Below the pieces are notes generated by a model. The model had not been told where the DNA came from. It did not search any database and saw only the letters and a list, made by a program, of their open reading frames with translations. A stretch of 64,000 nt of DNA from a virus, in the IMG/VR virus record IMGVR_UViG_3300028559_000034, positions 1 through 64,000 of that record; one strand, 5' to 3'. The translations under genes and the position numbers were made by a program. Position 1 is the stretch's first letter; every line of letters begins with the position of its first letter. This document shows, piece by piece, positions 33,101-39,019 of the stretch.

Positions 33101-33544
33101 ATGAATTATTTAAAAAAATATAAATTATTTAATGAGTCTATTGATGATATAAAAGATAGTCTTTTAGAATTAAAAGATGATGATTGGATTGTACAACATG
33201 AAAAATTTGATATTTCTAGTGACTTTGCATTCACTGATGAATTTTTAATATTTAAAAGAGGTAAAAGTGGATACTATCTAGATAACACCGAATGTGAGCT
33301 TTTTAATATTAACGAAGTTATAAATAATGTAATAAGATTTGTAAATATGTGTAAAATTGATGATTATAAATATAGAATTATAACAAATGATGGTCAATAC
33401 ACACTTGATATTACAAAAAAAATAAATGAGTTAGATCAAGTTGATATTAGTGATGTTGTTGGGAATACACATCTTCATTTTAAGAAAAAAACTAATATTG
33501 ACCTAGAAAATATTAAATTCATTTCATGTCAAATATTAAAATAA
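33101..33544 (+). CDS. hypothetical protein with capsid-targeting-like N-terminus
   Basis: A 147-residue protein starting MNYLKKYKLFNES, one of the best matches to the shared N-terminal motif. The rest is acidic alpha/beta (DDDWIVQHEKFDISSDFAF). It is the last gene of the 29.8-33.5 kb cassette and is followed by a terminator. Function unknown. Confidence 0.68.
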   Translation: MNYLKKYKLFNESIDDIKDSLLELKDDDWIVQHEKFDISSDFAFTDEFLIFKRGKSGYYLDNTECELFNINEVINNVIRFVNMCKIDDYKYRIITNDGQYTLDITKKINELDQVDISDVVGNTHLHFKKKTNIDLENIKFISCQILK

Positions 33545-33570
33545 AACCCATCTAAAGATGGGTTTTATTT
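33539..33570. terminator. bidirectional hairpin terminator
   Basis: A 14-15 bp perfect stem with CCCATC/GATGGG at the top, a TAAA loop, and A/T tracts on both sides. It lies between the convergent cassette (ends 33544) and the release-factor gene (ends 33579). Confidence 0.88.
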
Positions 33571-33578
33571 TTTATCTT

Positions 33579-34256
33579 TTAATTTAGTAATTCAATTTTA
33601 CCTCGACTAAAATCTTTAAAAGAACATTGTTTACCAGTTTCGTGATCTACAACTAAATCTTCTTTTATTCTATAAGATCTTTTCTTATTTGATCTAGAAC
33701 CCTTACCAACCTGATCTAATCGATTTTGATAAGATTTCTTATTCCATTTTTCTTCTTCAATAGATCTTAATTTCTCTTCAAGTCTTTGAAAAGCCAAATC
33801 TTCATTCTTTTTTTGATCTCTAGTATCTTGACATTTAATTTGAATACCAGTTGGCTTATGTGTTAATATAACACAACTAGATACTTTATTAACATTTTGG
33901 CCACCAGCACCACTACTTCGAGTATATTGTTTAGTGACTTCATTACGATTAAAATTATATTCTAATTTATCGCTTGGATCAATTATCGCAACTGTAATTA
34001 TTGAAGTTTGTGTTCTACCATTTTTTTCAGTTGGTGGAATACGTAGCCAACGATGTGGTCCACTTTCATTTTTGAAGAATGTTTTAACTTTTTTACCAGT
34101 AATTCAGATAGATGAGAATCCATCTCTATTAATAACTTCATAATTAAAGTTATTAACTCGTGATGTTTTGAGATAAATATCTCTTAAATCTTCTACAAGA
34201 AGTTTTGAATCTTGTCCGCCTTCAGCGGCTCTTATTTCTATAATAATTTGCTCCAT
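33579..34256 (-). CDS. RF1-type class I peptide release factor with an in-frame UGA
   Basis: A single frame of 225 codons runs from ATG 34254-34256 to the stop at 33579, interrupted only by TGA at codon 51 (34104-34106). Before it: [20 protein letters not shown], the start of the release-factor core. After it: [30 protein letters not shown], and [12 protein letters not shown] with the catalytic GGQ at 118-120. The recognition tripeptide is P-P-T (74-76), the P-x-T type of RF1 (UAG/UAA), not S-P-F of RF2. The N-terminal helical domain is missing, as in short release-factor relatives. Readthrough, mutation and sequencing error are all open. Host-type promoter at 34353. Confidence 0.8.
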
Positions 34257-34352: not shown

Positions 34353-34384
34353 CAAATATATAGTTTTATATATTAAGATCCAAA
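34353..34384 (-). promoter_or_regulatory. Bacteroidetes-type promoter for the release-factor gene
   Basis: On the minus strand: TTTG at 34381-34384, a 20-base spacer, TATATTTG at 34353-34360. The predicted leader is ~90 bases and contains an imperfect hairpin near 34293-34317 and a tiny frame (ATG AAA CTA TGA). The TTTG lies inside a 35-bp tandem duplication. Confidence 0.6.
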
Positions 34385-34438
34385 TAGTTGTTCTAATAAA
34401 AAATATATTAAGATCCAAATAGTTGTTCTAATAAAAAA
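34369..34438. repeat. perfect 35-bp tandem duplication
   Basis: Two identical 35-bp units, 34369-34403 and 34404-34438. The second contains the stop and last ~10 codons of the minus-strand gene at 34408-34866; the first carries the same sequence beyond the stop and supplies the TTTG element of the release-factor promoter. Confidence 0.95.
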
Positions 34439-34866
34439 TCTCTTTTAATCTCTTTAGGTAAAAGATCCACAATTTGGTTCTTTCCTTGAAGTGGATTTTG
34501 ATCCCTACTAGAAATATCAAATATTAATTTTAATCTTTCATCTTTTGACGTATTTGTATCATAATAAAATCTCCTCTTTCCAAGACTTACACCTGATTTA
34601 TTCTCAAGCCAAATCTTATCTATAAGGTGATTTTTTACTAAACACCATAAAATATAATTATTACTATACTTTAATATCCAAAATGAGTCAGACTTAGGAT
34701 GAATCTTTTCAATTTTAACAGAAACTCTTTTCCCATCTCTATACTCAAATTTAGTATCTTCATTATCAAGCATCATAATAGATTCATAAGTGATAGGATT
34801 ATATCCTGGCTTATGAAAATTAGTTTTCTTAAAACCTAAATCTTTAAGTTTTTTATGAGCATTCAT
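34408..34866 (-). CDS. hypothetical protein
   Basis: A 152-residue basic protein (MNAHKKLKDLGFKKTNFHKPGY). The region FEYRDGKRVSVKIEK and FWILKYSNNYILWCLVKNHL suggests a compact alpha/beta fold seen in small phage proteins, but I cannot name it. The 3' end is duplicated (35-bp tandem repeat). A TATATTTG element lies 5 bases upstream of the ATG without a clear partner box. Confidence 0.6.
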   Translation of the reverse strand: MNAHKKLKDLGFKKTNFHKPGYNPITYESIMMLDNEDTKFEYRDGKRVSVKIEKIHPKSDSFWILKYSNNYILWCLVKNHLIDKIWLENKSGVSLGKRRFYYDTNTSKDERLKLIFDISSRDQNPLQGKNQIVDLLPKEIKRDFLLEQLFGS

Positions 34867-38380: not shown

Positions 38381-39019
38381 ATGATAATATATAAAGTAAC
38401 AAATAATATAAATGGTAAAATCTATATCGGACAAACTATAAATAGTCTTGATAAAAGATGGAAAAGACATACATGGAAATGCACTATAAATAAAATATCA
38501 ATGGCCATAACAAAAGCAATATCAAAATATGGCAAAGAAAACTTCACGATAGAAGAAATAGATAAAGCGGATAGCATAAAAGAACTAAATGAGAAAGAGA
38601 TCCATTATATAAAATTATATAATTCATTATCACCAAATGGATATAATTTAACAACAGGTGGTGATAATAAAAGATTATCAGATGAAACAAAAAATAAAAT
38701 ATCAAACTCAAACAAAGGAAAAAAAGCTTCAGAGGAAACAAGGAAAAGGTTATCAGACTCACACAAAGGTATTAAAATGTCAGAAATGACTAAGATAAAG
38801 TTGAGGTTGATAAATAAAGGAAAAAAACCATCAGAAAATACAATAAAAGGATCTATTCAACACAATCAAAAGACATACACATTAAAGAGTCCAAGTGGTG
38901 AGATAGTTACCTTTACCAACATGAAAGAATTTTGCAAAGAAAATAACCTATGTAATTCAAAATTATGTCTGGTTGCATCTGGTAAAAGAAAAAATCACAA
39001 AGGATGGACACTTCCCTAA
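38381..39019 (+). CDS. GIY-YIG homing endonuclease with NUMOD3 repeats
   Basis: A 212-residue endonuclease. The N-terminal GIY-YIG domain is clear: IIYKVTNNINGKIYIGQT, with Arg and Glu residues following (DKRWKRHTWKC, FTIEEID). SPNGYNLTTGG ends the domain. Then come NUMOD3-type DNA-binding repeats (SDETKNKISNSNKGKK, SEETRKRLSDSHKG) and a C-terminal helix-turn-helix module (FCKENNLCNSKLCLVASGK ... HKGWTLP). It is inserted between the Dam and NADAR genes and oriented opposite to them, typical of a freestanding homing endonuclease. Confidence 0.93.
   Translation: MIIYKVTNNINGKIYIGQTINSLDKRWKRHTWKCTINKISMAITKAISKYGKENFTIEEIDKADSIKELNEKEIHYIKLYNSLSPNGYNLTTGGDNKRLSDETKNKISNSNKGKKASEETRKRLSDSHKGIKMSEMTKIKLRLINKGKKPSENTIKGSIQHNQKTYTLKSPSGEIVTFTNMKEFCKENNLCNSKLCLVASGKRKNHKGWTLP

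Follow-up and report, generated by a model that had tools for sequence, protein, structure and literature searches.

Gating of a release factor by a stop codon within its own gene has been described for bacterial prfB and for eRF1 of mimivirus and megavirus, and these were the only cases that we found in the open-access literature when looking for phage-encoded or RF1-type release factors under such control. The prfB gene, encoding RF2, autoregulates through the sequence CUU UGA C (PMC10885494, PMC3521657), with slippage occurring at UGA-C (PMC5289835). In the eRF1 genes Mimivirus R726 and Megavirus mg280, readthrough at UGA-C is followed by a +1 frameshift at CUU UAG C or CUU UAA C; for mimivirus, this recoding was demonstrated by expression in E. 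coli (PMC3521657). RF1 and RF2 are named among phage genes in a paper on huge phages, the consulted parts of which make no mention of gating (PMC7162821). No account of a short RF1-like family was found in the open-access literature.

The gene analysed here lies within a stretch of 64,000 nucleotides of viral DNA (positions 1 to 64,000 of record IMGVR_UViG_3300028559_000034), called the window in the following. Its features are:

33579..34256, minus strand: gene of a short RF1-like class-I release factor, 225 codons if the internal UGA is read through, then TAA
34104..34256, minus strand: upstream reading frame of 50 codons plus UGA, predicted to yield a short non-functional product if termination is efficient
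34104..34106, minus strand: in-frame UGA, codon 51, in the context ATC TGA ATT (next base A)
34029..34037, minus strand: P-P-T tripeptide, codons 74-76, located where RF1 has its PxT codon-recognition motif
34008..34010, minus strand: Gln83, replacing the His of the 'HTS' motif after the PxT loop
33897..33905, minus strand: GGQ catalytic motif, codons 118-120
33543..33566, no strand assigned: palindrome AAAACCCATC-TTTA-GATGGGTTTT followed by T-rich sequence, terminator-like, read from the sequence directly

The open reading frame extends on the minus strand from ATG (34254-34256) to TAA (33579-33581). An earlier note on this DNA had reported one frame of 225 codons broken only by TGA at codon 51, with GGQ and P-P-T in place, and all of this was confirmed: the frame is identical on either side of the UGA, the single internal stop. 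The palindrome separates the gene from a convergent one at 33101-33544. Two further observations concern the surroundings. The upstream gene 34408-34866 has an exact tandem duplication of 35 nt (34368-34437) at its 3' end, with its last codons and stop falling within one of the copies, and the start of the ORF at 38381-39019 looks by eye like GIY-YIG endonucleases.

Like prfB, the window gene is a class-I release factor gene broken early by a stop, where slow decoding would permit full-length synthesis; at the level of sequence only, it has what characterizes prfB, a stop in a release factor gene that must be bypassed for the full-length product. In contrast to prfB, bypass would consist of in-frame readthrough, with neither a frameshift nor a Shine-Dalgarno-like element. 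The prfB-type +1 frameshift site, a CUU-stop with such an element, is absent from the window gene, whereas 82 CUU-stop sites were located in its relatives. Furthermore, the window protein is RF1-like, and UAG and UAA serve as gating stops in some relatives. Mimivirus and megavirus eRF1 share with it that the release factor is encoded by a virus, and one phage relative, L068, even has the same order of events, UGA readthrough and then a +1 shift at CUU UAG C. However, these are eukaryotic/archaeal-type factors of amoeba viruses, not homologous to bacterial RF1, and the window gene carries a single readthrough stop.

Assignment of the product to the RF1 type, as claimed in the earlier note, held in part. 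The read-through window protein matched the Pfam families RF-1 (1.8e-29) and PCRF (5.8e-18), its closest match among solved structures was Thermus RF1 (6e-37), and it has GGQ and a tripeptide of the PxT type. On the other hand, domain 1 is absent, window residue 4 aligning with Thermus RF1 residue 107, the His of 'HTS' is replaced, as in most class A members, and canonical RF1 (prfA) has no internal stop as gate. The protein also missed the NCBIfam equivalog cut-offs for RF1 (190 bits compared to 400 for NF001859 and 178.1 compared to 423.25 for TIGR00019) and likewise that of the RF2 model. The lack of domain 1 is reminiscent of PrfH, but the recognition region differs and the PrfH cut-off was missed as well (72.9 bits compared to 166.65). 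Among seven bacterial holders of related short factors, RtcB was absent from three and located away from the short factor in the other four. Several other RF-1 domain genes are present in bacterial holders, and PrfH-like genes beside RtcB share genomes with the short ones but lie elsewhere in them; the short factor is therefore not PrfH. Each of nine phage records searched contained one release factor gene.

A lone stop within one gene usually points to a pseudogene, a recent inactivating mutation or a sequencing error, the latter two of which the earlier note had kept as alternatives. The alignment with homologues argued strongly against all three. Of 19 aligned class A genes, with protein identities down to about 45-50%, 18 carried UGA at the homologous codon, and synonymous sites were near saturation among the genes sharing it. 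The same TGA was found in L003 (76% identity), L004 (64%) and two huge phages of 642 kb (LR756502) and 735 kb (LR756501); it is also present in IMGVR_UViG_3300028557_000180, which shows 100% identity over 9,915 nt and may represent the same population. The nineteenth gene (L008) has a sense codon at this position and a UGA 8 codons upstream instead; several relatives carry two UGAs, the additional one preceding the conserved one by 8 or 13 codons. In these 19 genes the UGA is the most conserved codon and is never replaced by TGG, a codon that occurs 32 times elsewhere in the same genes, which indicates that the stop and not a tryptophan is being kept. Beyond the UGA, dN/dS was about 0.11-0.19 in the five pairs with finite estimates. 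This strong purifying selection implies that the downstream frame is translated and useful. Homologues with sense codons throughout and further defects in this copy, the pattern that the earlier note would have taken as evidence against a regulatory UGA, were not what we observed. Together with the constrained context described below, conservation in divergent phages and downstream selection led us to reject sequencing error and gene decay, to which, barring an artefact common to all records, we attribute a practically negligible probability.

The context of the in-frame UGA was constrained in two respects. The following base, determined for 41 UGAs over the whole family, was A in 25 and C in 16 cases and never G or U, whereas the genuine UGA stops of the same genomes also take U and G (Fisher p = 5e-5, ignoring phylogeny). 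In E. coli, A at +4 favours misreading of UGA by tRNA-Trp and U at +4 raises termination (PMC5289835); A and C are leaky contexts. In addition, leucine codons following the UGA in the class A set were CTG or CTA in nine of nine cases, codons that are rare in most class A genomes (P ~3e-9 from codon usage, ignoring shared ancestry). We read both biases as selection acting on the context of the in-frame UGA.

Recoding occurs in phages, UAG being reassigned in certain huge ones (PMC7162821), so that reassignment of UGA to tryptophan throughout the genome, or a suppressor tRNA of the phage, had to be considered. Unlike in UGA-recoded phages (codes 4/25), UGA is not a sense codon throughout the genome here and terminates genes: among 47 long window genes, 39 end in UAA and 5 in UGA, and the remaining long ones have no internal UGA. 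Four huge relatives, covered by their fetched parts, have UGA at the end of 42 of 272, 10 of 64, 10 of 89 and 2 of 108 long ORFs. ARAGORN detected 37-59 tRNAs per phage in these parts, none with a UCA anticodon; the window itself is a genome fragment. The standard code is used elsewhere in these phages, and reassignment or suppression appears very improbable. Two other particularities were noted in the 735-kb phage, namely two adjacent tRNA genes with CUA (amber) anticodons (L175:5585-5738), TAG being a stop in some of its genes, and an ORF with one TGA at codon 323 of 430 (L163:2777-4069), possibly a fusion or another readthrough.

An in-frame UGA might also encode selenocysteine. No conserved RNA structure or SECIS element was detected downstream of the UGA in 13 relatives, which argues against this reading, as do the two UGAs lying 8-13 codons apart in many relatives and the frameshift stops that take the place of the UGA in L068 and L239. 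We give selenocysteine hardly any credence. Conservation of both parts of the gene would likewise suit a split product, in which the 50-residue N-terminal part and a re-initiated C-terminal part assemble into the factor. However, there is no start codon at the window UGA, the nearest listed in-frame start being a TTG at 33797, and the frameshift relatives would not yield two such parts, making assembly from two pieces highly improbable.

The gate extends well beyond class A. From scans of IMG/VR and GTDB genomes, read by frame-tolerant profile alignment, we obtained 132 distinct sequences that exceeded the score limit, of which 12 fell on the canonical RF1 branch and 120 were short. Where the upstream sequence was complete, canonical RF1s had at least 106 coding codons upstream, compared to a median of 15 open codons in the short members. 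A stop gates 116 of the 120 short members, 112 of them in the alignment and four (L009, L070, L255, L257) in an N-terminal extension read by eye. The four ungated ones are L306, the two indels of which look like assembly error, and L258-L260, three similar genes on separate low-coverage contigs of a single Myxococcales MAG. The gate is either an in-frame UGA or a prfB-like CUU-stop with a +1 frameshift at UGA, UAG or UAA, and sometimes two occur in series, as the pairs of +1 sites in L255, L257 and L009. CUU preceded the stop at all 82 frameshift sites located by alignment (63 UGA, 18 UAG, 1 UAA), and most of these sites have, as prfB does, a GGAG(G)-like element on the upstream side at a distance of exactly 3 nt. 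In L070, the site seems to be GUU UGA. UGA was the commonest gating stop across the family. A quick tree gave at least nine switches between readthrough and frameshifting and at least twelve changes of stop identity; some of the sequences are closely similar and hence not independent. One gating mode has thus replaced another repeatedly. Beyond the claims of the earlier note, the alignments delineate a distinct family of RF1-like release factors without domain 1, shared by phages and bacteria, in which gating by UGA, UAG or UAA, through readthrough or +1 frameshift, is nearly universal and of which the window gene would be a readthrough member.

We consider it quite probable that programmed readthrough gates this short factor, which would be made when termination is slow. 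The mechanism that we infer covers readthrough itself, the residue that is inserted, what induces it, the feedback loop and the codon specificity of the factor. Ribosomes would normally stop at UGA codon 51 and release an inactive peptide of 50 residues. Release at the UGA would slow down when host RF2 is scarce, inhibited or busy with a heavy load of UAA and UGA termination, and a near-cognate tRNA, probably tRNA-Trp, could then decode the UGA in its leaky A/C context. Translation beyond codon 51 would reach the catalytic domains and give the full-length factor, which would ease termination and close a negative feedback loop. The sensor in the window would be the UGA and hence the occupancy of host RF2, a factor that also serves UAA, the predominant stop of the long window genes. 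By releasing at UAA and UAG, the phage factor would free RF2 and readthrough would decrease; since this loop is indirect, no UGA activity of the product is needed. The earlier note had proposed a regulatory UGA through which an RF1-type product responds to host RF2 rather than to itself, and this is compatible with the evidence, readthrough and feedback being the conjectural parts. In relatives, an additional UGA or a +1 frameshift of the prfB type at CUU-UGA, -UAG or -UAA would serve as the same gate. In class A phages, Shine-Dalgarno sequences upstream of genes were not in excess (2 of 48 in the window compared to 5 of 48 in a control stretch), whereas they were in class B phages (43 of 150 compared to 21 of 150), which may explain why class A relies on readthrough instead of Shine-Dalgarno-stimulated frameshifting.

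The P-P-T tripeptide predicts RF1 specificity (UAA/UAG), and the window product may not read UGA itself; given this tripeptide, strict autoregulation remains a proposal. It would require that the phage factor recognises UGA, for instance by virtue of the His-to-Gln replacement, and closes the gate directly as RF2 does on prfB. The predominance of UGA among the gating stops would agree with this, and so would the variability of the recognition region: the PxT loop and the His of 'HTS' vary or are missing in many members, the loop being shortened or missing in L205, L072, L233, L238, L227, L232, L234 and L010, and specificity may have drifted. Because of such altered or deleted loops in some relatives, stop-codon decoding by the family is uncertain. 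However, nearly all UGA-gated members have P-P-T-like tripeptides, UAG and UAA gates alternate with UGA among close relatives, and neither the His/Gln residue nor the tripeptide showed a clear link to the identity of the gating stop across the family. Direct autoregulation is possible but in our opinion unlikely. A stop that senses nothing and sets a low, constant readthrough ratio would be conserved in a leaky form too, as a static low expression would require. Against such a fixed output, the family consists of termination factors, the stop is retained while the mode changes, the frameshift variants match the prfB site known to respond to the release factor level, and low output could be had more simply by weakening the promoter or the start site. 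We hold it to be rather improbable. Our preferred reading is programmed readthrough, with the family protein probably being produced only after termination at stop codons has slowed down.

Among the holders of the family are uncultured huge phages, Myxococcota (Nannocystis, Minicystis, Kofleriaceae, Sandaracinaceae), Pseudomonadota and one Bacteroidota MAG; no cultured phage was recognised among the matches listed for the phages collection. No common neighbour was found in bacterial holders, nor were PADLOC defence families found. In Novimethylophilus, a gene combining kinase, metallophosphatase and RNA ligase domains (L308:1714-3927) lies directly upstream of a frameshift-gated short factor, hinting at a link of short release factors with RNA damage. 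The only other locus resembling it was L284, by a weak partial tblastn match, and in L304 a gene with a metallophosphatase domain is located about 1.4 kb upstream.

In conclusion, a separate RF1-like family is gated in nearly every member and keeps its gate while stop codon and mechanism switch; among its prokaryotic and phage genes are some with what we take to be readthrough of an in-frame UGA. Such genes are prone to being split or discarded by gene callers. The chances seem about evenly balanced that these proteins constitute, next to RF1/RF2 and PrfH, another kind of class-I release factor widespread in phages and bacteria, a stop-gated inducible backup that would be produced only upon failure of normal termination, for instance with host release factors blocked or overloaded. 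Gated release factor genes offer a natural sensor of termination stress, and the family allows comparative tests of an old question, namely why the substrate of release factors should also control them.
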